A DNA stretch of 64,000 nt from Actinomycetota bacterium. Lineage in GTDB: Bacteria; Actinomycetota; Thermoleophilia; RBG-16-64-13. Positions 11,020 to 45,107 of the stretch are shown piece after piece (the first letter of the stretch is position 1; each line of letters opens with the position of its first letter). Where the stretch lies: the NCBI GenBank assembly GCA_016278725.1, contig JADQBG010000004.1:1-64000 (forward strand). Reading direction: 5' to 3'. The notes beneath the pieces were generated by a model. The model had not been told where the DNA came from. It saw nothing but the letters and a program-made list of their open reading frames with translations, and did not search any database. A program made the position numbers and the translations under genes.

Positions 11020-11092
11020 GGCGGGATAGCTCAGTTGGTAGAGCACATGACTGAAAATCATGGTGTCCGCGGTTCAAATCCGCGTCCCGCCA
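11020..11092 (+). tRNA. tRNA-Phe (anticodon GAA), integration target
   Basis: Acceptor arms GGCGGGA/TCCCGCC pair fully, and the anticodon loop CTGAAAA reads GAA. The T arm is GCGG-TTCAAAT-CCGC. The 3' half from the anticodon onward is repeated at 45065-45107 and partly at 54584-54598, and an integrase gene lies nearby, so this is the restored target of an integrative element. Confidence 0.97.
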
Positions 11093-11093
11093 C
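11051..11093 (+). repeat. Left attachment repeat (tRNA-Phe 3' half)
   Basis: The 43 bases from the anticodon loop to the 3' end match 45065-45107 at 40 of 43 positions, with an identical first 18 bases (CTGAAAATCATGGTGTCC). Two of the three differences are a compensating change in the T stem (G-C to C-G). The following terminator and the short TTTTGTG...TGAAG stretch are also similar, so the repeat extends over about 80 bases. Confidence 0.8.
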
Positions 11094-11859: not shown

Positions 11860-13092
11860 TTACCCGGTGACGAGCGCCGCAATCCGGGAGGCCGCCTCTT
11901 CCTCCATAGAGGGAACGGCATGCGAATACACGTCCAAGGTGAGGGACACGCTCGCGTGCCCCAGCCGCTCGGACACTACCTTAGGATGGACCCCCGCAGC
12001 GAGCGCCAGGGTTGCATGGGTATGTCGAAGCCCATGTAGTGTGATGGGTGGCGCGCTCGTCTTCTTCGCTGCAGCCTTGAAGACTTGAGTGATCCGCTCG
12101 GGCCGGTAGCCGGTTCCGTTTTCCCGAGTGAACACGAGCCCGGTGTTGATCCAAGCACGCCCCCAGTCGAGCCGTTCCTCGCGCTGGCGGCGTCGCCACG
12201 CTTTCAGGGCAGCCACCGTCCCCGGGTCGAGGGTGACCGAGCGATGCCCCTTCCGCGTTTTGGGCTCGCTTACCACGACCAGGGAGTTGACCGGTACGAC
12301 GCTCCTACGCACCACGAGGCGCCCAGCCTTCAGATCGACGTCCTCCCACAGGAGCCCGAGCGCCTCGCCCCGACGCAGCCCGGTGAGCGCCAGGGTGAGC
12401 CAGAGCGGGTAGAGCCGGTCGTTCTTCACCGCCTCAAGGAACTTCTTCAGATCTTCCGCCTGCCACGCCCGGCCCGCGGACAGCTTGGGATCGACCTGGC
12501 GCGGGGGATCCGCGTTCTCGGCCGCGTTCCTTGGCAGATAGCCCCAGCGCACCGCGTCTCTGAGCGCTCGGTGAAGGGTGGCATGGACCCGTCTCACCGA
12601 GTTCGGCGAGAGCCCGCCCTTGCCGCTCGCCTTGCCTTCGCGGGCAAGCTCTGAGTAGAGGCGGTTGATCTGCCCGGGGGAGAGCTTCTGCAGGGGGACT
12701 GTGCCGATACGGGGCGCGATATGGACCTTCACGTGTGTTGAGTAAGAGGCGAAGGTGGCCGGGCGGATGGTCGACTCGATGGCGGGTAGCCATTCGAGGG
12801 TGAGAAACTCTTTGACCGTTACCTTGGCCGGCTCGATGTAGGTGCCCTGCTGGAGCTCGGTAAGCGCAGTCGCGAGGGAAGCCTGGGCTTCTTTCTTCGT
12901 CTTAAAGCCTGTCTTTACCTGCTGCTTTCGTTCGACCCGGCCCACCAATGAGCCGCCACACTTCGGGCAGGCTTTTAGGAGAGTTCGTCCCACCCAGTGG
13001 CGCTTGTTGCACTCGGTGCAGCGCTGGGTGGGACGATCGCCGAGTTCCAGGATGTACTGCCAGGTGCCTCTCTTTCGGACGTGGCCCTGCAA
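11860..13092 (-). CDS. int: Tyrosine-type site-specific integrase with N-terminal zinc ribbon
   Basis: A 410-residue phage-type integrase that probably recombines the element with tRNA-Phe. An N-terminal arm-binding domain contains a four-Cys zinc ribbon (Cys 25, 28, 42, 45), unusual for this family. A SAM-like core-binding domain follows (~90-190), then the catalytic domain with Arg240 (TGLRRGE), Lys278, His353-x2-Arg356 (HGLRH), His379 and nucleophile Tyr389. All catalytic residues are present, so it looks active. The start is TTG with GGAG upstream, two bases after the stop of the 13095-14000 gene, so the two are co-transcribed. Confidence 0.95.
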   Translation of the reverse strand: MQGHVRKRGTWQYILELGDRPTQRCTECNKRHWVGRTLLKACPKCGGSLVGRVERKQQVKTGFKTKKEAQASLATALTELQQGTYIEPAKVTVKEFLTLEWLPAIESTIRPATFASYSTHVKVHIAPRIGTVPLQKLSPGQINRLYSELAREGKASGKGGLSPNSVRRVHATLHRALRDAVRWGYLPRNAAENADPPRQVDPKLSAGRAWQAEDLKKFLEAVKNDRLYPLWLTLALTGLRRGEALGLLWEDVDLKAGRLVVRRSVVPVNSLVVVSEPKTRKGHRSVTLDPGTVAALKAWRRRQREERLDWGRAWINTGLVFTRENGTGYRPERITQVFKAAAKKTSAPPITLHGLRHTHATLALAAGVHPKVVSERLGHASVSLTLDVYSHAVPSMEEEAASRIAALVTG

Positions 13093-14329: not shown

Positions 14330-14619
14330 GCGAGCGACAGGAGCGAGGGCTTGGTGCCCACGCCGACACTGGGTTTGCGGTTGATGACCGTCTGCCTGCC
14401 TGGCTAAGAGAAATCATCCAAGAGGAGGGCCGTCTTACCCTGACCGACTACGAGACTGCGCGCCTACTTGGTATTAGTCGGGGCAGCGTCCGGCAGGCTA
14501 TCGGGGCGGGTGAGGTGCACTCGGTTCGTCTGGGGAGGCGGCTGCTCGTCCCGGTTATCCCCCTGCTGCGTCTGCTGGGACAAGAGGATGCGCTCCAGGG
14601 GGCTATTGATGCCGAGTGA
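14326..14619 (+). CDS. Excisionase-like MerR/HTH_17 protein
   Basis: A 97-residue protein with a winged-helix excisionase-type module (LTDYETARLLGISRGSVRQAIGAGEVHSVRLGRR in segments, about residues 37-72). Such proteins bend DNA for excision or act as regulators. It is translationally coupled to the preceding XRE gene and precedes the primase-helicase, the normal position for an Xis or replication regulator. Confidence 0.75.
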   Translation: MSERQERGLGAHADTGFAVDDRLPAWLREIIQEEGRLTLTDYETARLLGISRGSVRQAIGAGEVHSVRLGRRLLVPVIPLLRLLGQEDALQGAIDAE

Positions 14620-14708
14620 GATGCCTAGTGAATCGCGCCGCTTCATGTCGAACCTCGTCGCCATCGGTAATGAACCCGCCCAACAACTTACCGGCGGGAG
14701 GCGATGAA

Positions 14709-17126
14709 ATGACGAATGGCGTGTCCCCCTCGGATGTAACTCGGTTCTTGCTTACCCTGTGGAGGCAGGGAGACGTCCGTGAGGTCCGGATCCCTAAGCA
14801 CGACTCCTATAGCACCGCCTCAGGCTACTTTGATACTCCCGAAGCTCTGGCCGACGCCGCGCTCTCCTGGGATAAGAGGGCCAATATCTACGTGACTCTG
14901 AATCCGGTAAAGAGTGACCTGCTTGCACGGGCAAACAACCGAATCGAGCGTCGGGCTAGGCATGCGACGTCAGACCAGGACGTCATCTGGCGACGCTTCT
15001 TGCCAATAGATATTGACCCGGTGCGACCGAGCGGGGTTAGCGCGACCGATATTGAGCGCCAGGCGGCATACGATCTTCTATGCGAGATCGTGACGTCCCT
15101 TCACTCCTGGCCCGAACCGATCACGTGTCTGTCGGGGAACGGCTACTATGCCCTCTATCCCATTGATCTTCCGAACGCCCTTGAGTCGCAGGAGTTGGTG
15201 CAGGGGGTCCTCCGGTTTTTGGACCAGCGCTTCAGCAATGAACGCGCCAGAGTCGATCCGACGCTTGCCAACGCATCCCGCATCATCGGCCTCATCGGTA
15301 CCCTAAAGATGAAGGGCGACTCAACCAAGGACCGCCCCCATCGACGTTCGAAGCTGCTGGAAGTTCCTCAGAAGATCGAGGCGGTGCATCCGACACAGCT
15401 GCGCCGACTGGCCGGTGACGCGCAAGAGTCGAAGCGGACCTGTTCGAAAGGCGGCAACTCAGAGCCAGTCAACCTGCTCCTGGAACGCCACGATGTTCGT
15501 TTCAAGGAGCAGCCGCCAGATCAGTCGGGAAACGTCTGGTATCACGTCGAGCGCTGCCCTTTTCACGATGACGGGAGGGATTTCGAGTGCGGTGTCGGGC
15601 AGGCGCCCGACGGACGGTACCTGGGCAAATGCTTTCACCCGGAAGGTGACGGGAAGGGCTGGCGGGAGTTTAGCGAGGCTCTCGGGCTAAGGTCGACGCA
15701 GAAGCCCGACATGAGGAGGCAGGACTGGCAGGGCGAGGGGGTCGCGGCGGGAGGTGCTGCCGGGGCTCATGCTGATCGTTCGTGTGTTCCGACTGTCTTT
15801 AACCGGACTGACGCCGGCAACGGCGAGCTCTTCGCCGCTTTGTACCGAGGCCTCGTTCTTTACGACCATGGTCTAGAACGCTGGCTGCGCTGGACGGGGC
15901 AGCGGTACACCGAAGACGAACTGGGTGCCGTCGAGGGACTGGCCGTGGAGGCCGCCCGGCATCGCCACCATCAGGCGGTCCACTTGGCGGACTCGACGGA
16001 GCGAAAGCTCGAAACTGATTTCGCAATGCGCAGCGAGGATGAGAAGCGCATCCGCGCGATGCTGCGTCAGGCAAGGCGCCAGCCGGGCGTCGCTGAGCGT
16101 GCCGAAGCCTTCAATCGGGATCCTTGGCTTGTGGGGATGGAGAACGGGGTTTTCGACCTGAGAACTCAGGAGCTTCGGCCGGGGCGTCAGGAAGACCGGA
16201 TCACTTTCTCCACCGGCCTACGCTACGATCCGGATGCTGCCTGCCCGCGGTGGGAGAGGTTTCTCAACGAAATATTCGAAGGCGATCTGGATCTGATCGA
16301 CTACATCTGGCGCGCCACAGGCTACAGCCTCTCAGGTAACACCGGCGAGCAGTGCTTCTTCATCTGCCATGGGCGAGGTGCGAACGGAAAGAGCGTGATG
16401 CTGAATACGCTTAAGACGGCGGCCGGGGACTATGGTCACACCCTGGCGTTTAGCGCGCTCGAGTACGAGAACCGCGGCACGAGCGACCCGCACGTTGCTG
16501 AGCTTAAGGGGCGGCGCTTCGTGGTCTCATCGGAGATCAACGAGGCGAGCCGCCTAAATGAGGCCAAGCTTAAGGCTCTTACCGGCCAAGACGATATGCC
16601 GGCGCGCAAGCTGTACAAGAGTCCCTTCAGCTTCGTACCGGAGGCCACTCTATGGCTCGCCGTCAACCACGCACCCGAGATTCGCGATAGCTCAGATGCC
16701 TCTTGGCGGCGCATCCGGGTTATCTCCTTCCCCCGCTCCTTTCAGGGCGAAGAAGTGGATAAGGAGCTCGAGGAGCACCTGCGGCACGAGCTGGTAGGCA
16801 TTCTTGGCTGGATGCTACGGGGATGCCGGGAGTGGCAGGAGCGCGGACTCCGTCCCCCAGCCACCGTGGAGTGTGCCACGGAGCAGTACCGTAGAGAGTC
16901 CGACCCGCTGGCGGAGTTCTTGGACGAATGCTGCCTCCCAGATTCGGAAGCCACGGCACAAGCGAGTCTGCTGTACGCCGGCTACCGCGAATGGGCGCAA
17001 GCGCGACGCCTATCAGAACGCGAGATCCTCTCGAGCAAGGCCTTTGGCAGCCAGCTCACCGGCCGGTTCCCCAAGGGCCGCAACAGGTCCCACACCTTCT
17101 ACTCTGGGCTGAGGCTAATCTCATGA
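14709..17126 (+). CDS. Primase-polymerase/SF3 helicase replication protein (P4/D5 type)
   Basis: An 805-residue fusion that should initiate element replication. The N-terminal archaeo-eukaryotic primase-like domain has DID (~101-103), SGNGYYALYPI (~142-152) and ANASRIIGLIGTLK (~187-200). A Cys/His zinc module follows (CPFHDDGRDF...KCFHP, ~283-311), then a D5-N domain and a superfamily 3 helicase with Walker A GRGANGKS (555-562) and Walker B-like RRFVVSSE. The ATG at 14709 follows GGGAGGCGATGAA; longer in-frame starts lack a site. It lies directly before a long inverted repeat that could be its origin. Such proteins occur in satellites, plasmids and integrative elements. Confidence 0.9.
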   Translation: MTNGVSPSDVTRFLLTLWRQGDVREVRIPKHDSYSTASGYFDTPEALADAALSWDKRANIYVTLNPVKSDLLARANNRIERRARHATSDQDVIWRRFLPIDIDPVRPSGVSATDIERQAAYDLLCEIVTSLHSWPEPITCLSGNGYYALYPIDLPNALESQELVQGVLRFLDQRFSNERARVDPTLANASRIIGLIGTLKMKGDSTKDRPHRRSKLLEVPQKIEAVHPTQLRRLAGDAQESKRTCSKGGNSEPVNLLLERHDVRFKEQPPDQSGNVWYHVERCPFHDDGRDFECGVGQAPDGRYLGKCFHPEGDGKGWREFSEALGLRSTQKPDMRRQDWQGEGVAAGGAAGAHADRSCVPTVFNRTDAGNGELFAALYRGLVLYDHGLERWLRWTGQRYTEDELGAVEGLAVEAARHRHHQAVHLADSTERKLETDFAMRSEDEKRIRAMLRQARRQPGVAERAEAFNRDPWLVGMENGVFDLRTQELRPGRQEDRITFSTGLRYDPDAACPRWERFLNEIFEGDLDLIDYIWRATGYSLSGNTGEQCFFICHGRGANGKSVMLNTLKTAAGDYGHTLAFSALEYENRGTSDPHVAELKGRRFVVSSEINEASRLNEAKLKALTGQDDMPARKLYKSPFSFVPEATLWLAVNHAPEIRDSSDASWRRIRVISFPRSFQGEEVDKELEEHLRHELVGILGWMLRGCREWQERGLRPPATVECATEQYRRESDPLAEFLDECCLPDSEATAQASLLYAGYREWAQARRLSEREILSSKAFGSQLTGRFPKGRNRSHTFYSGLRLIS

Positions 17127-17244: not shown

Positions 17245-18483
17245 ATGACCAAGCTCACTTCCCCGTCCTTTGATCTCGTCAGCTTGCCTGTTGGCGAGCT
17301 TCGCCCCGACCCCGCCAACCCCCGACGCATCTCCGACTCAGACCTCGAAGCCCTCACAAGAAGCATTCAGGAGTTCGGCCTGGTCGATCCCATCATCGCG
17401 CGAGCCGACGACAAGATGGTGATCGGTGGCCATCAGCGCTTGCTAGCCGCCCGGCGCCTGGGCCTGAAAGAGGTCCCGGTCGTCCTCCTAGACCTCTCGG
17501 AGGAGAAGGGTCGTCTCCTCAACTTGGCCCTGAATAAGATCTCGGGCTCTTGGGACGAGGAGCTCCTCGCCCGTCTCCTCGCCGACCTGGACCAAACCCC
17601 CGACCTTGACCTCGGCCTCTCCGGCTTCGACGAGGAAGAGGTGAAGAAGCTCCTGAAGACCCTTGACGTGCGGGAAAAGCGCGACCGGCCGGAGAGCTTC
17701 GACCTAGATGCCGCCCTCGCTGAGGCCGAGCGCGAACCCCGGGTGAAAGCAGGCGAGCTCTGGGCGCTGGGGGACCATCGGCTGCTCTGCGGGGACGCCA
17801 CTGATGCCCAAGCGGTCAGAGAGTTGCTGGAGGGCCGTCAGGCAAGGGTGGCCTTCACCGATCCCCCATACAACGTCGCTCTCGGTGATCACGGCGGCCA
17901 GCAGCAGGGTCAGAAGAAGCGCCGCATCAAGAACGACGCGCTGCCTGCTGCCGAGTGGGAAGCCTTCTGCCGGGGTTGGGCCGAGAACCTCATCCGGCAC
18001 GTGGACGGGGCGCTATACGTTTGCATGAGCACCAAGGAGTGGCCCTTGGTCTCCGGAGTCCTGGAGGAGTCCGGGGCGCATTGGTCAGACACCATCATCT
18101 GGCAAAAGGACCGCTTCGTCTTAGGCCGCGCCGACTACCAGCGAGCCTATGAGCCCATCTGGTACGGCTGGCCGGAGGGTGCCAAGCGCCACTGGTGCGG
18201 CGACCGGGATCAGTCAGACGTGTGGAAGGTGGCCCGGCCCTCGGCCTCAGAGGCCCACCCCACGATGAAGCCCCTGGCCCTCGTCGAGCGGGCGCTTGAG
18301 AACTCTTCTGAGAGAGGAAACCTTGTCCTCGACCTTTTCCTGGGTTCCGGGAGCACGCTGATCGCCGCGGAGAGGACCGGCCGGATCTGCTACGGCACCG
18401 AGCTTGATGCACACTACGCTTCCATAGTGCTGGCCCGCTGGGAGGCCTTCACCGGGGAGCAAGGACGGAAGGTGGAGCCCTAG
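17245..18483 (+). CDS. ParB-domain / DNA N-methyltransferase fusion
   Basis: A 412-residue protein common on actinobacterial and phage elements. The N-terminal ParB/Srx-type domain (about 10-100) shows LRPDPANPRRISDSDLEAL and IGGHQRLLAA. The C-terminal methyltransferase has DPPYN (206-210) before the SAM-binding FLGSGST (~370), the beta-class order, suggesting N6-adenine or N4-cytosine methylation. The ParB part probably steers DNA binding rather than partition. No restriction partner is adjacent, so it may be an orphan enzyme protecting or marking element DNA. Confidence 0.9.
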   Translation: MTKLTSPSFDLVSLPVGELRPDPANPRRISDSDLEALTRSIQEFGLVDPIIARADDKMVIGGHQRLLAARRLGLKEVPVVLLDLSEEKGRLLNLALNKISGSWDEELLARLLADLDQTPDLDLGLSGFDEEEVKKLLKTLDVREKRDRPESFDLDAALAEAEREPRVKAGELWALGDHRLLCGDATDAQAVRELLEGRQARVAFTDPPYNVALGDHGGQQQGQKKRRIKNDALPAAEWEAFCRGWAENLIRHVDGALYVCMSTKEWPLVSGVLEESGAHWSDTIIWQKDRFVLGRADYQRAYEPIWYGWPEGAKRHWCGDRDQSDVWKVARPSASEAHPTMKPLALVERALENSSERGNLVLDLFLGSGSTLIAAERTGRICYGTELDAHYASIVLARWEAFTGEQGRKVEP

Positions 18484-20138: not shown

Positions 20139-20808
20139 ATGACTAGGCCGTCGGCAAGACCGCTGTACCCCGTTGCTGAAGCTTCCCGCTACGCTAGGGC
20201 TAAGCAGAGCAACGTTCGCAATTGGCTCAAGGGCTACGAGGCCCGCAATCGCCTCTATCCCCCCCTGCTCGACCCCCCCGGTCGAGCGACCCGAAGGCGA
20301 GCTGGCGCTCTCGTTCGAGAATCTAATCGAGATTGCATTAGTTACTGCATTGCGAGGCAGCGGGATATCGCTTCAGGCCATCCGTGAAGCGCACAAAATA
20401 GCGAAGAAGGAATTTGGCGAGCACCCATTCGCCCGGCGAGACGTCTTTATCGCGGGCAAAGACCTCTTCATGCGAGCGTCTGAACTGGTGGAGGGAGGGT
20501 CGGGACACCTAACCGCCCTAACGAGGGGCGGTCAGCGAGCATTCGAACCCGTGCTCAATACGTACCTCACGACGATCCAGTTCGAAAGGGGTTGGCCGAT
20601 TGAATGGCGCCCCCGTCAGGGGGCCGTTGTCCAAAACCCTGAGATCGAATTCGGACGACCTAACGTCGACGGGATCCGAACAGAGGTGATCAGAGAGCGG
20701 TTTGAGGCGGACGAGAGCATCGGCTTCATCTCGGATGATTTTGGGCTGACGCCCGAGGACGTTGAAGCGGCGTTAAGGTACGAATTCTGGTTGCGGCCCG
20801 CCGCTTAG
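20139..20808 (+). pseudogene. DUF433 antitoxin of VapB45 type, frameshifted
   Basis: The N-terminal part MTRPSARPLYPVAEASRYAR...NVRNWLKGYEARN...YPPLLDPP is a MerR-like DNA-binding region. After a run of seven C residues near 20275-20281 the frame changes, and the rest continues as PPVERPEGELALSFENLIE...SGISLQAIREAHKIAKKEFGEHPF to the stop at 20808. Together they give a normal DUF433 antitoxin. One extra C explains the break, so the gene is either recently dead or the assembly has a homopolymer error. AGGGAG precedes the ATG. The VapC45-like toxin follows directly. Confidence 0.75.
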
Positions 20809-20811
20809 ACA

Positions 20812-21190
20812 CTTTCTTCTGCGACCGTAACTTGGGTCGCACTGTGCCCCGTTGCCTCCGGGAGGCTGGTTGGCAGTCGAGGTGCACGATGACCACTTCA
20901 CCCAACGGACCAAAGACCCAGTCCTCCTCCTGCGCGAATTGGGCCGCCGGGGATGGGTTCTAGTTACCAAAGACAAACACCTTCACTCCCGACCTGCCGA
21001 GCGGGAGGAATACCTGCAGGCCGGCCTTCGCATCTTCGTGTTGACTTCCGGTTCCATCCGGGCAGAGGAGGCTGCGCAAGCGTTTCTCGAGGCCGAGCGG
21101 GCAATCAGAAGCGTCCTTGAAGCGAATCATGGACCGTTCATATGCAGGGTGACGAGGGACGGTTCGGTCAAGCTAGTCGTCGGGCGGTGA
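20812..21190 (+). pseudogene. PIN-like toxin of VapC45 type, frameshifted
   Basis: The first 60 or so bases read FFCDRNLGRTVPRCLREAGWQ in one frame, and the rest continues as VEVHDDHFTQRTKDP...VLVTKDKH in another, ending KLVVGR. The N-terminal Asp (CDRNLG) and the TKDKH segment match PIN-like RNase toxins paired with DUF433 antitoxins. A single missing base near 20876 explains the change. No good start codon is visible after the antitoxin stop. With its partner also frameshifted, the pair is probably inactive unless both breaks are sequence errors. Confidence 0.7.
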
Positions 21191-21649: not shown

Positions 21650-21677
21650 TTGGTTAGTCCAGTAACGGTTGTATAAT
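21650..21677 (+). promoter_or_regulatory. Sigma-70-like promoter of the Ubl operon
   Basis: TTGGTT (21650-21655) and TATAAT (21672-21677), the latter a perfect -10 box, are separated by 16 bases. Transcription would begin near 21684, giving a leader of about 30 bases before the GTG of the Ubl gene. Confidence 0.7.
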
Positions 21678-21715
21678 CGCGCGGCCGGCCCATGCCGTTT
21701 GACAAAGGAGTCTCT

Positions 21716-21982
21716 GTGAATGAGAAAAACAACAAGATCAAGCTGACAGTCGTTATATCGAGCAGGGACCACGAAGTGACTGTTAATCCCCACCAGACGG
21801 TTGAGCAACTGGTCCGAGAGGCGCTTCGCGACAGCGGGAACGAGGGGCAACCTGTCGACAACTGGGAGCTGAAGAAGTCCGACGGTTCCGTCGTTCCTAA
21901 CGGAGCTCGGATTCAGGACACTGGAATTACCGACGGGTCGAAGCTCTACCTCTCTCCTAAGGCCGGAACGGGTGGCTTCTGA
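21716..21982 (+). CDS. Ubiquitin-like modifier ending in Gly-Gly-Phe
   Basis: An 88-residue single-domain protein with a beta-grasp pattern: IKLTVVISSRDHEVTVNPHQ (two strands), a helix (TVEQLVREALRDSG), then GARIQDTGITDGSKLYLSPK. It ends TGGF, so removing Phe88 would expose a C-terminal Gly86-Gly87 for adenylation. The GTG at 21716 has AAAGGAG five bases before it, better than an ATG at 21692. The following genes encode an E2-like, a JAMM peptidase and an E1-like protein, each overlapping the last, so this is the modifier of a conjugation system. Homologous four-gene systems (Bil) block phage by modifying virion proteins; that role here is inferred. Confidence 0.85.
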   Translation: MNEKNNKIKLTVVISSRDHEVTVNPHQTVEQLVREALRDSGNEGQPVDNWELKKSDGSVVPNGARIQDTGITDGSKLYLSPKAGTGGF

Positions 21983-22595
21983 TTCTCTCCCCGTTCTCGT
22001 TGACCCGACTGTAAGCCGGCGAAAGCTCCAGCGCGAAATCGACGCTTGGAGACGTAACGAAGCGGACTATCGAGCACGTGGATGGATCCTTCTCCGGCAC
22101 GAGGATTTGGTTGTCGAGGTAAGCTTCGCACGCGCGGTTCAACTTGGAGGAGCCCAACTGCCTCTCCTCGTACCGACCGTCCGCTTCAGCTTTCAGAATT
22201 ATGACCTGTGGCCGCCGTCACTCACATTCATCGATTTCTTCAGCGGTGCCGCGACCGATTGCCCTCTCCCCAATGCTTGGCTCGCGACGACAGAAGGCCC
22301 CCGCAACATCTTGCTCCGGAATCCAGATGGGAAGCAGTTCCTGTGCCTCGAGGGAACCCGAGAATTTCACACGCATCCTCAGCATACCGGAGAGCACTGG
22401 GCGCTATGTCGTTCGAGAGGAATGGGATCACTTGCCGTCCTGTGTGAACGCGTCTGGGAAGCAATCACACAAACTGTGGGTGGGTTGGGATTCACGCCCG
22501 TGGTCGTGCAGAAACCACCGCAGCAGGTTCTAGAAATAACCCCTCAGATGATAGCTGCCCTTCAACAGCTTGCTGGGGGACCGGGGCAAGCGTGA
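21972..22595 (+). CDS. E2-like protein of the Ubl conjugation operon
   Basis: A 207-residue protein that begins with a GTG inside the Ubl gene (11-base overlap). The segment LPLLVPTVRF...YDLWPPSLTFIDFF fits the strand-Pro-Pro pattern of the E2/UBC fold. A cluster follows: C125 in QFLCLEG, then EFHTHPQHTGEHW with His 133, 135, 138 and 142, typical of prokaryotic E2-like proteins with a conserved His/metal-like motif. C125 is my candidate thioester Cys; C97 is another Cys. Its job would be to receive the Ubl from the E1 and pass it to a target. The C-terminal tail (about 175-207) is unconserved-looking. Family assignment rests on motif and context. Confidence 0.75.
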   Translation: MASDSLPVLVDPTVSRRKLQREIDAWRRNEADYRARGWILLRHEDLVVEVSFARAVQLGGAQLPLLVPTVRFSFQNYDLWPPSLTFIDFFSGAATDCPLPNAWLATTEGPRNILLRNPDGKQFLCLEGTREFHTHPQHTGEHWALCRSRGMGSLAVLCERVWEAITQTVGGLGFTPVVVQKPPQQVLEITPQMIAALQQLAGGPGQA

Positions 22596-23083
22596 GCCAG
22601 CGTGGACTTCTTGCGGTCGAACGGTTCGTCTTGCCCGAGCGAATCCTTGAGCTGACACTGGAGTCCCTGGCAGCTATCGGCAGAAGACGGGTCGAGGGGT
22701 TTGTTGTATGGGGAGGCGTGCTCGAGGAAGGTGGTCGCCTTCTTCGATTCCAGTCTGCGCTGACCCCTCGGCAACAGGCCTATCGGACCCAGATGGGCTT
22801 GCTCGTGGTGGTAGACAGCGATGGCCTTTTCGAGATCAACAAGACGCTGAATGACCTCGGACAGATCTTAGCCGCACAGGTCCATACACACCCAGGAGAG
22901 GCGTACCACAGCGAAACAGACGATCATCAGCCCATCGTCACGCTTGTTGGCGGTCTCAGTTTGGTCATCCCCTTCTTTGCGCAACGAGGACTCGAAGCTT
23001 GGGACGACTTTCGTTGGTATCGCCTGGAGGGGTACGCGGACTGGCGGGCGATCGACGCGGACGTGGAGGTGATCGTTGTATGA
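22592..23083 (+). CDS. JAMM/MPN metallopeptidase (deubiquitinase-like)
   Basis: A 163-residue protein with a complete JAMM zinc site: Glu35 in RVEGFVVWGG, His98 and His100 in HTHPGEAYHSETD, Ser107 and Asp110. These bind the zinc that activates water. In such operons this enzyme trims the Ubl precursor and can remove Ubl from targets; the Phe after Gly-Gly in the Ubl is an obvious substrate. It overlaps the E2-like gene by GTGA and the E1-like gene by ATGA, which keeps production in step. Confidence 0.9.
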   Translation: MSQRGLLAVERFVLPERILELTLESLAAIGRRRVEGFVVWGGVLEEGGRLLRFQSALTPRQQAYRTQMGLLVVVDSDGLFEINKTLNDLGQILAAQVHTHPGEAYHSETDDHQPIVTLVGGLSLVIPFFAQRGLEAWDDFRWYRLEGYADWRAIDADVEVIVV

Positions 23084-24666
23084 GCCTCCCGCGGTTTATC
23101 AGTCGTGTTGCCGACGCCGCTATTCCGCTCCTCGGTGGACTCGATAGGGGCGACTTCACCGAGCACCTAGCAGGTACGGCGGTAGGCCTAGCCGTAGCCG
23201 AGGAGGTTGCTGCTGCAAATCATCACTTGTCACATGCCTTCTTGCTTGCGGTCAATTTGGCAGCACGCTTCTATCCCAGGCTAGTAATAGATGCGCCCCC
23301 AGAACTGAGGTCGAAGGCAGAGGCGCTCGCCTTCGCTATCAATCCCTTGTGTGAGACAGAGTCCACTGCGTTACCAGTGTCCTCGCAACTCGTCTTCACG
23401 CCAGATTCTCCGACCGGGAATGAAGTCACCGTCTGGGCATCCGGTTGGAATGTGGTTATCGATGGCGGTGCGGGTGGCCCTCTGTCGACGCCGTTACTGC
23501 CGGCAGCGTTGGCCGCGGGCACACTCGGGATGGCTGAGGTATTCCGAGCAGTATTCGCCGACCTTCTAGGTCCCGTCCGAGGTCGGACTGCGCCGCAGCC
23601 GGGCAGCCTAAGCCTGATCACCACTGAAACCTGGACCCAGGGATTAGACATCGAGCTTAAGCGCCTGAACGTCGGCCGGGTTCATTTGGTTGGAGCGGGC
23701 GCGATCGGACAAGCGGCTGTGGAGGTGTTTCGGCACCTCGACCTGACGGGGTCGCTGGTTGTAGTCGACCACGAGGCGGTTGATTTGTCCAACCTCCAAC
23801 GATACGTGCTCACGCGGGACGAAGACGAGCATCGGTCGAAGACAGCCATTGTGAAGCAGGCCCTTGCTGACAGCTCCAGCCTTGAGGTGCACGAAGTACC
23901 CCAGCGGTGGGGGCTTGATCTGGAGGCTCAAGGCAACCTCGACGCTGTCCTTGTTGCACTCGACACTGCGGAGGACCGGATGGGGGTTCAGGCATCATTG
24001 CCTAGACGGATATACAACGCATATACTCAGCCGCTCGACCTTGGCTGGTCTCGCCACGAGGCGTTCGGTGTAGAACCCTGCCTCGCGTGTCTTTATTGGC
24101 CGACTTCACGGACTCCAAGCCGACATGAAGTCATCGCGCAAGCATTGGGGGAGTCGCCGTGGCGCGTTCTTGCCTACCTCGCCTCTCGACGGCCGGTTGG
24201 AACCTCTCTCGTCGCCACAGAACTTGTGCCGCCGGTGGAGGCGACAGCCGTCGAGAGGGGACACTGGACCACAGTCCCGTTGCTGGAGGATCTTATCGGT
24301 CGCTTCGGACTTCCCGCCGACGCCCGACCGGAATGGGCTAACAGCACAATAGAGGATCTGTATCGCCGCGGGGTATGCGGGGGCGCTATTATCAAGACCG
24401 GGACGGGTTCGTCAGAGCGAGAAGTAGTAGTGCCACTAGCTCACCAGTCTGCGTTCGCTGGCATCATGCTGGCCGTGCAACTGCTGGCTTCGTCGCACCC
24501 TGTTCTCGCACACGCGAGGCCCGACCAGGTGGAAGGACGGTTTGACGTGCTGGGAGGGCTGCCGCAGGTCCCAGGTGTGCCGCGAGCACGGACGCCGGGG
24601 TGCATATGCTCAGATGCCGATTTTTTTGAGCGCTGGGAGGAGTTCCAGCAAATGGAATTGCTATAG
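23080..24666 (+). CDS. E1-like (ThiF/HesA-fold) activating enzyme
   Basis: A 528-residue protein with a unique N-terminal region (1-195) and a ThiF-type adenylation domain: VHLVGAGAIGQ (201-211) binds ATP, VVVDHEAVDLSNLQR (227-241) gives the Asp that contacts Mg-ATP, and DEHRSKT carries the Arg/Lys. CLAC (334-337) and CIC (508-510) are placed to form a four-Cys zinc knot. Cys433 in RGVCGGAI is a candidate thioester Cys. It should activate the Ubl C-terminus and hand it to the E2-like protein. The N-terminal domain is not recognised and may bind the Ubl or E2. It is the last gene of the operon. Confidence 0.9.
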   Translation: MSLPRFISRVADAAIPLLGGLDRGDFTEHLAGTAVGLAVAEEVAAANHHLSHAFLLAVNLAARFYPRLVIDAPPELRSKAEALAFAINPLCETESTALPVSSQLVFTPDSPTGNEVTVWASGWNVVIDGGAGGPLSTPLLPAALAAGTLGMAEVFRAVFADLLGPVRGRTAPQPGSLSLITTETWTQGLDIELKRLNVGRVHLVGAGAIGQAAVEVFRHLDLTGSLVVVDHEAVDLSNLQRYVLTRDEDEHRSKTAIVKQALADSSSLEVHEVPQRWGLDLEAQGNLDAVLVALDTAEDRMGVQASLPRRIYNAYTQPLDLGWSRHEAFGVEPCLACLYWPTSRTPSRHEVIAQALGESPWRVLAYLASRRPVGTSLVATELVPPVEATAVERGHWTTVPLLEDLIGRFGLPADARPEWANSTIEDLYRRGVCGGAIIKTGTGSSEREVVVPLAHQSAFAGIMLAVQLLASSHPVLAHARPDQVEGRFDVLGGLPQVPGVPRARTPGCICSDADFFERWEEFQQMELL

Positions 24667-24827: not shown

Positions 24828-25355
24828 CTACAATAGGCCTTGTCTTCCTGCCCAATCGAACAGGTCCGATCCATGGCACGGAAACCACATTTCTGTATCC
24901 GCCAGCGCGTCTACTAGTTCTACTGCTGTCCCTCGACTCAACTCTCCCATCCGGAAGCCTCGTATAACTAGCCACAGAGTACCGTGCACCACCACATTCC
25001 GTCGTCTGCCGTGGTTAGTCCCGGCTCTTTCGTCGACAATTGCAGTTGCGCCGTTCAGCTCTGCCCAGGCAAGTACTGAAGCTTCGCCGATGTCCCGCTG
25101 GCTCGATCCGAGGAGACGAGTGTATTCGGTGAAGACACGGAGTGCGTCCAGCCCCTCGCCCAGGCGTACCTCCTCAAGCCACGTAGCGGTTAGGATGTCT
25201 TGATTCAACGGATGGAGACCGAGACCATCCCGAAGCTCTTCCAAGACGGACTGCGTCGCCACACTCCTACAATCCTGGCACAGCTTCCGCAACGACTCGA
25301 CTTCGCCTGCCCGCGCAAAATGCGTGAGCGGGGTCGTGTCGAAAACAAGAGTCAT
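24828..25355 (-). CDS. PIN-domain RNase toxin
   Basis: A 175-residue protein with acidic PIN residues: Asp6 (LVFDTTPLTHF), Glu39/40 (SVLEELRDG), Asp88/Glu91 (RDIGEASVLAWAE) and Asp108 (AIVDERAG). It resembles DUF3368-type PIN proteins, Mg-dependent ribonucleases. Its ATG overlaps the stop of the upstream XRE-ImmA/IrrE gene, a classical toxin-after-regulator arrangement. It ends 161 bases from, and convergent with, the Ubl operon, so it is separately expressed. Confidence 0.85.
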   Translation of the reverse strand: MTLVFDTTPLTHFARAGEVESLRKLCQDCRSVATQSVLEELRDGLGLHPLNQDILTATWLEEVRLGEGLDALRVFTEYTRLLGSSQRDIGEASVLAWAELNGATAIVDERAGTNHGRRRNVVVHGTLWLVIRGFRMGELSRGTAVELVDALADTEMWFPCHGSDLFDWAGRQGLL

Positions 25356-26470
25356 CAGCTTTCGTTGAACTCTGGGGTGAGGGCTTCGAGTGGCAATTCA
25401 TACGTCTCGGGTAGCTCGTCTTCAGTAAGGGTGTGGTGTAGCAACTCGAGCGCCCGCGTACTCGTGATCTTGTTGCGGCGGTAGCTCCCTATGACTGCGG
25501 CGGAATACCGCGGTGGTAACGAAGGCGGTATGAGCTCCTCTTGGAAGACCAACGCTCGTTCTATGTAGTCAGCTCGTGTAGGGGGCTGTGATAAAAGAAT
25601 GGTTCGCCTATCCTCATCAATGAGACCCAGATTCAGGAGGTGCGCACAGGCGGCTGTCCAGCTGACTCCAAAGTAAGCCGCAAGCGAGATTGTGGCTCCC
25701 CGTGGATCGACATGGCCTTCCGCATCCCCCCATAGCTTCACTGTCACATTTCTTGGCATCAACAAGAATATGGCGAATGCATTCAGCAGCCGCTCGTGAG
25801 CGCCACTGATGTCATCGAACAAGGAGTGGTCGACAGAGTAAGCGTCTGAAAGGACGTGATGACCAATCTCGTGGGCAAGTGTGAATCGCCTCCGACCAGC
25901 TGGCATGCTGCCATTAATGATTGCCACGCCTGCACCCTCTAACAGAACGTAGGCGCCGTCGGATGTACCGGCAGGCATCTCAAAAGAGAACGCGTAGAGG
26001 CCAAGTCGTTCTGCGGTAAGCTGGAGGTTTGGAATGGCTGCTGATTCGCCAAGTTCCGTTCGGACGCTCGTTGCCAGGTCCTCGGCTTGGGAATGGCTTC
26101 GAATTGAGGAGGGGTCTCGAGAGTCCTCCTTAGGGAGCCCGCCTATCTCGAGCAGCAGCTCGACGTCACGTGACACGCGCTCAAGTTCCAGGTCTAAGGA
26201 GGTTGATGGACTAGTGTCGAGCTGGTCCGAGCGACGGCTTACCACCGACTGAGGAGGCTCCGTAATGAACCACTCAAGAGGGAGGCTCAGGACGTTAGAG
26301 ATCTGCCCTAGCTCCAAGGAGCTGATGCTTCGCCTACCTCGCTCGATCTTGGCAATAGCGGTCCTGTCAAGACCGACAGACGACGAGAGCTGAGCCTGGG
26401 TCAGCCCGCGTGCCTCTCGGGCCTGGGCCACGCGGGTGCCGATCTGTTCCCAGGTTTCGAAGTAGCGCAT
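25355..26470 (-). CDS. XRE regulator fused to ImmA/IrrE metallopeptidase
   Basis: A 371-residue protein with an N-terminal helix-turn-helix (about 10-65; LTQAQLSSSVGLDRTAIAKI) and a C-terminal ImmA/IrrE zinc peptidase (HEIGHH, 200-205, with a downstream Glu/Asp-rich helix HERLLNAFAIFLLMP). Family members are both repressors and proteases that clip repressors or antitoxins on stress. It is coupled to the PIN gene and probably acts as antitoxin/regulator. AAGGGAGCGAGG precedes the ATG. The pair is a known toxin-antitoxin-like layout and could serve as a backup or guard for the neighbouring defence genes. Confidence 0.9.
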   Translation of the reverse strand: MRYFETWEQIGTRVAQAREARGLTQAQLSSSVGLDRTAIAKIERGRRSISSLELGQISNVLSLPLEWFITEPPQSVVSRRSDQLDTSPSTSLDLELERVSRDVELLLEIGGLPKEDSRDPSSIRSHSQAEDLATSVRTELGESAAIPNLQLTAERLGLYAFSFEMPAGTSDGAYVLLEGAGVAIINGSMPAGRRRFTLAHEIGHHVLSDAYSVDHSLFDDISGAHERLLNAFAIFLLMPRNVTVKLWGDAEGHVDPRGATISLAAYFGVSWTAACAHLLNLGLIDEDRRTILLSQPPTRADYIERALVFQEELIPPSLPPRYSAAVIGSYRRNKITSTRALELLHHTLTEDELPETYELPLEALTPEFNES

Positions 26471-27526: not shown

Positions 27527-27828
27527 GATGTCTCCTCTCGTCGTGGAAGCACCATGTTCGCTCTGATCCCGGCGAAGTCAACGCTCATAAGGCCAGAGCC
27601 CGACAAGATGGCCGCAGCCGACGTGCGGCGCCCACACTAACGGGCCATAGTGCGAATTCGTTACATGTGGCTGAAGCTTCCCGGAAGGCTTTCCAGCGGG
27701 CAACGTCGCCTTCTCGCTCGGCATTCCTTGCTAAGAGGCGGTCAGGGCTGCGTCGGTGGCGACAGTGCCACTCGGCGCTGTGCTACGGTGGCAGCGTCCA
27801 GGGACATCACCTAGACGGGGGCTTTGCC

Positions 27829-29010
27829 TTGAATGCGTGCACATTACCGGTCCCGGCATTCATTTCGTATTCGCATCGTGACGAAACCTTCAAAGATCGG
27901 CTGGAGACGCAACTTGCACTTATGCGTCGCCAAGGGGTAGTGAGCGATTGGCACGACCGAAGAATTACTGCAGGGCGGGAATGGGAGGGCGAGATCGATG
28001 AGCATCTCGCTTGTGCATCTCTCATTCTGCTCCTGATCAGTCCGGATTTCCTTGCATCCGACTACTGCTATGACGTCGAAATGCAAAAGGCTATGGACCT
28101 TCATGAAGCCGGCGAGGCCCGTGTCATTCCGATAATGATTAGGCCTTGTCCGTCTGGCTGGAAGAAGACGCCTTTTGCACGGCTTCAAGCTCTTCCGAGG
28201 GATGCGCGTCCGATCAGTGAGTGGGAAAATGAGGATCGCGCTTGGGTCGACGTGGTGGACGGCATAGAAGCAACTCTTGCTGACATGTGCCAGATGACGG
28301 ATGTTGAAGAGAATCCATACGAGAACTTCGGAAGATCTCGCCCCAGCGATTCGGTCCCAACCCATGATGTTGATCTTAGGCCGATTCTAGATAGGGCCAG
28401 GGCAGGTATACCGAAGACGTCGTCTTTTGGTCCTACCTTGCTGTGGTTTTGCATGGCGGGACGACCCTCTCCCGCTGTTCGTCCTGCAGAGTTTGACGCG
28501 CAGAGGTTAGAGCAAAGACTTGCCCAGTTGTTGCTGTTCGACGTGGGATTATTTCAACCCGGCGGCGGTTACGACCTTCGCCGGGAGGGATCCCAGCTCC
28601 AGATGGTGCAGGAGAAGTACAGAGTAGTGGTAGATGAAGAAGCGACAGTATGCATAGCCCAGCCTGCTGAGGCGGGTCCGTCTGGATTAACTTGCATTAT
28701 TGAGGAGGACTTGCGGGGCAAACTAAGCGAAGCCGTTCAGGTGGCCCAGGGTGTTCTCTCTCTGGTGGACCCAGAACGCAAGGTCGAATGCCTTGCAGTG
28801 GCGGCGGGCCTGACTGACTGTTCGCTTCTATGCTGGCGCACCGAAGCGGAGCATGCTGCAAGCCCAAATTCCATGACCATGGATCACTCAGACGGAAAAC
28901 CCATACTAGTTGAACTTCCGCGCCCTGTGGAACCGAGCCACCTCACACGTGACCGAGGGGATATAGTCGAAGACCTGTTGGTTCTTTTGCGTCGGGAGGT
29001 CAAGGGGTGA
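27829..29010 (+). CDS. TIR-domain protein with C-terminal sensor-like region
   Basis: A 393-residue protein. The TIR domain (about 8-150) shows AFISYSHRDE, DWHDRRITAGREWE, ASLILLLISPDFLASDYC and the probable catalytic Glu84 (YDVEMQ), as in NAD-cleaving bacterial TIRs; RVIPIMIRPC and RLQALPRDARPI complete the fold. Residues 210-393 form an unrecognised domain. The start is uncertain: TTG at 27829 has GGGGG eight bases upstream, but the frame is open much further. It overlaps the following gene by GTGA. The pairing and location in a defence island suggest an abortive-infection system; the trigger is unknown. Confidence 0.8.
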   Translation: MNACTLPVPAFISYSHRDETFKDRLETQLALMRRQGVVSDWHDRRITAGREWEGEIDEHLACASLILLLISPDFLASDYCYDVEMQKAMDLHEAGEARVIPIMIRPCPSGWKKTPFARLQALPRDARPISEWENEDRAWVDVVDGIEATLADMCQMTDVEENPYENFGRSRPSDSVPTHDVDLRPILDRARAGIPKTSSFGPTLLWFCMAGRPSPAVRPAEFDAQRLEQRLAQLLLFDVGLFQPGGGYDLRREGSQLQMVQEKYRVVVDEEATVCIAQPAEAGPSGLTCIIEEDLRGKLSEAVQVAQGVLSLVDPERKVECLAVAAGLTDCSLLCWRTEAEHAASPNSMTMDHSDGKPILVELPRPVEPSHLTRDRGDIVEDLLVLLRREVKG

Positions 29011-29777
29011 GCAGTGGAATGGCTGAAACCGAGCTCCGGAGGGCCAGGTGGGTTCGGCATAGAAAGCGCTTGGCTCTGCACCTTCCCCAAGATTCAGGCT
29101 TCTGCGCGGATCCTTTCGGCCACGAACCAGGTGCATCTGTCCGTATGCTGGTTCTACCCTCTGATCCTGACCAGGAATTTCTAGATTTCACCCCGTCCCT
29201 CTGGCAGTCACTTAGCCAACTAATGGACCCGGTGACCGGTAAGTCCGCGAGGTGGGGTCATCCTCGGCCCACGTCGGAAGCAGCTCTGCTCAAGTCGCCA
29301 CAGACAGGAAACTCTCTAAGTAGGTATTTGGCTGTATATCGAAATGGAGCGATCGAGGTAGGTTTAGGGGCTGAAGCCTTCTTTGAGTCACAGGGTCGAA
29401 GGTGCTTTCGATTGGTCACCATTGTGGGGCGCCTCTGGGCTGGCTTAAGCACGTATTCTGCACTCCAGGCTGGCGTTTTGAGCATTTCGAACCCCTGCCA
29501 AGTCGTGGTGGGGTTGCGCTGCACCGAGGGAGCGTCTCTCGGCCAGCTTAATGCTGGATGGGATGCTCATATTGACGAGTATACGCCTCGGTGCTTGGCC
29601 CCCGCGATCGGCCTTGCCTTTACCGTTGATTGCTGGGGGGAGTCAGTTTCCATACGAGAACTAGCGTTCCGTATCGGTGGGTGGCTTGAGGATTCTTTCG
29701 GGTCGATGGAACGCCGCTTCCTCAACCCTTCAAATCCGGACGAAGGGTCTTTTGCCGCAGCTACTTATGGGTGGTAG
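29007..29777 (+). CDS. Unknown partner of the TIR protein
   Basis: A 256-residue protein coupled to the TIR gene through a GTGA overlap. The middle (SLSRYLAVYRNGAIEVGLGA, then a long helix-strand run and VVVGLRCTEG) recalls the C-terminal region of AlbA_2-type helix-turn-helix ATPase-like proteins, but no catalytic motif is visible and I do not assign a family. It could be the sensor or regulator of the TIR effector. Not recognised as ThsA or any other described TIR partner. Confidence 0.55.
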   Translation: MSSGMAETELRRARWVRHRKRLALHLPQDSGFCADPFGHEPGASVRMLVLPSDPDQEFLDFTPSLWQSLSQLMDPVTGKSARWGHPRPTSEAALLKSPQTGNSLSRYLAVYRNGAIEVGLGAEAFFESQGRRCFRLVTIVGRLWAGLSTYSALQAGVLSISNPCQVVVGLRCTEGASLGQLNAGWDAHIDEYTPRCLAPAIGLAFTVDCWGESVSIRELAFRIGGWLEDSFGSMERRFLNPSNPDEGSFAAATYGW

Positions 29778-45064: not shown

Positions 45065-45107
45065 CTGAAAATCATGGTGTCCCCGGTTCAAGTCCGGGTC
45101 CCGCCAC
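45065..45107 (+). repeat. Right attachment repeat: tRNA-Phe 3' half
   Basis: The copy runs from the anticodon loop to the 3' end. Its T stem is CCCGG/CCGGG, so it differs from the 11051 copy by a base-pair-preserving change. No 5' half precedes it, so it cannot be a functional tRNA. It marks the far end of the 34-kb element. Confidence 0.8.

Follow-up and report, generated by a model that had tools for sequence, protein, structure and literature searches.

Identity and organization of the operon

Four closely packed genes in the window (the whole 64,000-nucleotide stretch of DNA that was analyzed) raise the question of whether they encode a bacterial ubiquitin-like conjugation system and, if so, whether that system is of a new kind. 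A sequence-only reading had proposed both a Bil-type conjugation operon in a defense context and a distinct subtype of it. We consider it very probable, at roughly 0.93, that the genes, bilA-bilB-bilC-bilD, form a complete Bil (bacterial ISG15-like) operon that is probably functional and is cargo of an island integrated at a tRNA-Phe gene. The relevant features are as follows.

21672-21677, + strand, TATAAT hexamer, possible -10 element (from sequence)
21716..21982, + strand, bilA, ubiquitin-like modifier (Ubl), GTG start, 88 aa, stop at 21982
21972..22595, + strand, bilB, E2, 207 aa
22344..22385, + strand, CEHH motif of BilB, C125/E131/H133/H138 (catalytic Cys and His), from conservation and published spacing
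22592..23083, + strand, bilC, JAMM/JAB metallopeptidase, 163 aa
23080..24666, + strand, bilD, E1, ATG start, 528 aa
24376..24378, + strand, codon of the BilD catalytic Cys433 (VCGG), aligned with the ICGG Cys of the solved BilD, invariant in 45/45

Inspection of the open reading frames bears out the four coupled Ubl-E2-JAMM-E1 genes that had been read from the letters. Across 21716-24666 all four are intact, co-directional on the + strand and translationally coupled, with overlaps of 11 nt (bilA/bilB), 4 nt (bilB/bilC), and 4 nt (bilC/bilD), and the order A-B-C-D in a single direction is that of Bil. The GTG at 21716 is favored over the ATG at 21692 as the start of bilA because an AAAGGAG ribosome-binding site lies 5 nt before it. 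Of the TATAAT promoter that had been proposed, the hexamer is present, but a promoter scan found no matching -35 for it, and the promoter is therefore unsupported.

For each of the four proteins the top match in the PDB is the corresponding Bil subunit, with E values from 5e-11 to 2e-54, far beyond chance. These matches, together with the TIR and type III restriction-modification genes of the island, uphold the reading of a Bil-type conjugation operon in a defense context. The E1 weakly matches CBASS E1-E2 models and ThiF/MoeB, which could be taken to mean that type II CBASS genes or MoeB/ThiF sulfur-carrier genes have been mistaken for a conjugation operon. However, E1 and E2 are encoded here as two proteins, the PDB match to BilD (2e-54) is far superior, and another gene of the genome, of the ThiF family, scores much higher against ThiF. 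The matches of BilB and BilD refute the CBASS/ThiF explanation, to which we give next to no credence.

The four proteins compared with Bil subunits

BilA is a beta-grasp Ubl with a near-terminal Gly, as evidenced by its Pfam match to DUF2604 (5.9e-21), its best PDB match to BilA of the solved Bil (8TYX_A/8TYZ_B, 5e-11), and its C-terminus, ...KAGTGG-F, in which one residue, Phe, follows Gly-Gly. The view that a minimal, single-domain Ubl capped by one residue is unusual is not sustained by the relatives, among which single-domain, short-capped Ubls are the rule: a single recognized Ubl domain is seen in 40/40 distinct BilA proteins, and in most of these 40 the C-terminal Gly lies at the end or a few residues from it. 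The solved BilA chains 8TYX_A and 8TYZ_B have 98-100 residues. Longer BilA proteins with more than one domain also exist, such as the 243-residue 8U38 chain, and an ISG15-like multi-domain form has been described (PMC11354881). The terminal Phe after Gly-Gly is absent from the other 39 distinct BilA proteins compared.

BilB matches Metal_CEHH in Pfam (9.4e-25), and its best PDB match is 8TYZ_C, E2(BilB) (1.1e-16). C125, H133, and H138 are kept in 42/42 distinct relatives and E131 in 41/42, while H135, the remaining His of the cluster, is unconserved. In the published BilB, the CEHH motif consists of Cys138, Glu144, His146, and His151, with Cys138 and His151 catalytic (PMC11354881), and the spacing of C125/E131/H133/H138 is identical to it. 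The His-rich character that had been held to set this E2 apart is thus the known CEHH motif of BilB. A search for the PF14461 E2 family gave zero matches. An AlphaFold model of BilB, for which two rows from plasmid records were left out of the input, has a mean pLDDT of 79.6, and its best structure matches are BilB of 8TZ0/8TYZ (E about 1e-9, TM 0.83-0.86 by target length); the next matches, which are weak, are eukaryotic E2s, e.g., Ube2W and UFC1. Structure prediction had been named as the check on the E2 fold, and it returns the fold of the solved BilB, so that an E2 fold and a CEHH motif are found in one protein. The Pfam name invites the view that BilB is a metal-binding protein in place of an E2. 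We reject this because the motif is shared by the solved BilB, whose fold the model also reproduces.

The best PDB match of BilC is 8TYX_B, DUB(BilC) (8e-21); the protein also matches the PADLOC BilC model (2.4e-12) and, weakly, Prok-JAB in Pfam. E35, H98, H100, S107, and D110 are all present and are invariant in 39/39 relatives. The JAMM active site expected of Bil is therefore intact, and the protein is the complete JAMM peptidase it had been called.

BilD has 8TYZ_A, E1(BilD), as its best PDB match (2.1e-54, residues 1-367 and 409-519 aligned), and it matches the PADLOC BilD model (2e-13) as well as ThiF (1.6e-14) and, weakly, Prok-E2_C in Pfam. Alignment to the solved BilD gives an N-terminal inactive and a C-terminal active adenylation domain, which with the catalytic Cys are the parts that characterize the Bil E1. 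Since the N-terminal part of BilD is known to be an inactive adenylation domain (PMC11354881), and the protein here aligns with that domain from residue 1, the 195-residue N-terminus that had passed as unrecognized is accounted for. GxGAxG, D230, and C433 are invariant in 45/45, as are C334, C337, C508, and C510, which presumably are zinc ligands. A stretch of 24 residues (376-399) has no counterpart among the 44 other distinct E1s. Taken over the operon, the catalytic residues that the sequence-only reading had named in the E2, the JAMM peptidase, and the E1 all lie where it had placed them and are family-invariant.

By homology, a conjugation cycle can be proposed. BilC would trim Phe from the C-terminus of BilA, leaving Gly-Gly exposed. 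The active adenylation domain of BilD would then adenylate the exposed Gly, leading to a BilA thioester at Cys433. BilB would take BilA on Cys125 and, with the help of His138, transfer it to lysines of target proteins, and BilC may also reverse the conjugates. A tested Bil attaches its Ubl to the phage central tail fiber (PMC12948488, citing Hor 2024). During infection the expected targets would be phage structural proteins, so that progeny particles would be defective. The analysis directly establishes which genes are present, how they are ordered, their folds, and their catalytic residues; we infer the anti-phage role, the targets, and the activity of this particular copy from its relatives.

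Relatives, divergence, and distribution

A profile search recovered 66 Bil loci in genome contigs, and the family so counted, about 66 loci, extends over several phyla. The hosts are rhizobia including Ensifer aridi, Methylobacterium, Sphingomonas, Acidobacteria, Eremiobacterota, and Dormiibacterota, and further Actinobacteria, Bacteroidota, Desulfuromonas, and one Bacillota species. The operon is also matched by 20 plasmid records. No relatives were found in viral contigs or phage genomes, and viral carriage of Bil was rejected on this count. Most of the 66 genome loci have the A-B-C-D order. A Desulfuromonas locus (L058, 3016-5994) departs from it, having the order A-B-D and, beyond the E1, a JAMM gene in convergent orientation. 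In Hymenobacter profundi (L063, 4233-5462), the BilA and BilB regions lie within one open frame of 409 aa, possibly a Ubl-E2 fusion.

The E1 is 26-37% identical to its relatives. In a midpoint-rooted tree of the Bil E1 proteins only, BilD forms a long isolated branch (3.38) between a Desulfuromonas/Pseudoneobacillus pair and all others, a placement that is unsure given the program's warning of long branches meeting. The sequence-only reading had itself held that trees placing the operon among Bil branches of the same layout would tell against a subtype. Run as an E1 tree, this comparison goes against the subtype, and the long isolated branch remains. The anatomy of the Ubl, the E2, and the E1 is in each case family-typical, and the operon has the gene order and the domain layout of Bil; we thus reject a distinct subtype defined by any of the three.

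There is a second, functional form of this idea, in which the Bil layout is kept while the target, the trigger, or the chemistry has changed. It would draw on the solitary E1 branch between the Desulfuromonas/Pseudoneobacillus pair and the other sampled Bil E1s, on the unique residues at E1 376-399, on the Phe that the other 39 distinct BilA proteins lack, and on the PADLOC models for BilA and BilB, which find no match in this operon, although those for BilC and BilD do. We regard it as improbable. The catalytic and architectural features are all as in Bil, the supposed novelties are family-typical, and the branch length fits ordinary fast evolution of a defense gene in a tree whose placement is flagged as unsure. 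The PADLOC BilA and BilB models equally fail on the Sinorhizobium fredii NGR234 operon (L004), which is close to that of Ensifer aridi. The misses therefore reflect the reach of the models, and surveys built on the two models may undercount Bil. What the data describe is an ordinary, sequence-divergent copy of Bil, in which every defining biological trait of the system that was tested is present.

Metal_CEHH occurs in 2/299 sampled genomes of the class, this genome included, and the match of the other class member scores 187 bits versus 46 and 41 bits for BilB here. The Bil operon is absent from the one other genome of the genus. The rarity in the class, the absence in the other genus member, and the better fit of the other copy together suggest that the operon was gained by horizontal acquisition.

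The tRNA-Phe island and its cargo

The surroundings of the operon contain the following features.

11020-11093, + strand, tRNA-Phe gene (tRNA search)
11051..11093, + strand, attL, the 3' part of tRNA-Phe, left island end (43-nt direct repeat, 93%)
11860..13092, - strand, tyrosine integrase adjoining attL (Phage_integrase 7.2e-20; phrog_1 integrase 7e-75)
14616-17126, D5-type primase, inside the island
17245-18483, ParB/DNA methyltransferase, inside the island
20173-21190, + strand, genes for a DUF433 protein and then a PIN_10 protein, immediately preceding the Bil operon
24828-26470, - strand, HTH + ImmA/IrrE peptidase gene (PADLOC model matches: RmrA, CapP, CapH) and, beside it in the same interval, a PIN-like (PDC-S70) neighbor
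27667-29010, + strand, TIR-domain protein, Thoeris ThsB-like (ThsB match 1.5e-52)
29007-29777, 256-aa protein of no known family, after the TIR gene
45065..45107, + strand, attR, right island end, where the 3' end of tRNA-Phe recurs as a displaced copy (43-nt direct repeat, 93%)

The tRNA-Phe repeat ends, the integrase, the primase, and the ParB-methyltransferase identify the Bil operon as cargo of an island of ~34 kb (11020-45107), which also encodes a type III restriction-modification pair. In a sister genome (G198), the tRNA-Phe gene sits at the edge of its contig. A different contig of G198 carries a second, partial copy of the 3' end of this tRNA, which may point to a hotspot at this site. 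The DUF433 and PIN_10 genes are likely a toxin-antitoxin pair.

The HTH-ImmA/IrrE gene lies just downstream of bilD and is convergent with it, and related HTH-ImmA genes are found divergently upstream of Bil in loci L006, L055, and L063. It is possible that the gene encodes a CapH/CapP-like regulator of Bil. Carried further, one could picture a deeply diverged Bil lineage on the tRNA-Phe island with targets or a trigger unlike those of tested Bil, possibly switched by this CapH-CapP-like repressor-peptidase; we think this unlikely. The adjoining HTH-ImmA gene could also speak for a housekeeping or stress-response pathway of protein modification rather than anti-phage defense, the more so as the related Bub systems are often coupled to DNA-damage regulators and phage protection by Bub is not yet shown (PMC13373217). 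The patchy occurrence of the operon (0/1 other genus genome, 2/299 class genomes including this one) and its carriage on an integrated island alongside TIR and type III restriction-modification genes argue against such a pathway, and we assign it little probability. Read as a defense operon of the Bil family, the four genes add a divergent member to it, located on an island integrated at a tRNA gene in a lineage that rarely carries Bil; the picture of bacterial ubiquitin-like conjugation stays unchanged.

Comparison with known systems

Type II CBASS, with Cap2/Cap3, likewise employs E1-, E2-, and JAB-type enzymes in defense. Cap2, however, is a fusion of E2 with E1 that acts on a CD-NTase (PMC12355090). 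In the present operon no polypeptide combines the two enzymes, which have an ORF each (E2 at 21972-22595, E1 at 23080-24666), and a true Ubl gene is present in addition. Bub operons are likewise bacterial conjugation operons of the Ubl type, and DNA-damage regulators lie near them (PMC13373217), but in the PDB each of the four proteins here finds its best match in Bil.

Closer still are the operons on rhizobial plasmids (Sinorhizobium fredii NGR234 pNGR234a; Rhizobium plasmids), in which gene order and families are identical and which are annotated gene by gene as DUF2604, putative metal-binding, Mov34/MPN, and "E2 ligase fold family C". They differ in host lineage, in residing on plasmids instead of a tRNA island, and in an E1 that is 30-34% identical. 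The Ensifer/Sinorhizobium-type BilA ends in AG-A, whereas BilA here ends in GG-F. The crystallized Bil proteins presumably came from Ensifer aridi. Compared with the solved Bil (PDB 8TYX, 8TYY, 8TYZ, 8TZ0), identity is about 30-35% and BilD has an extra ~24 residues at E1 376-399, yet the two systems share the four subunits, the single-domain BilA, the CEHH E2, the JAMM peptidase, the inactive adenylation domain at the E1 N-terminus, and the catalytic Cys, within VCGG here and ICGG in the solved protein.
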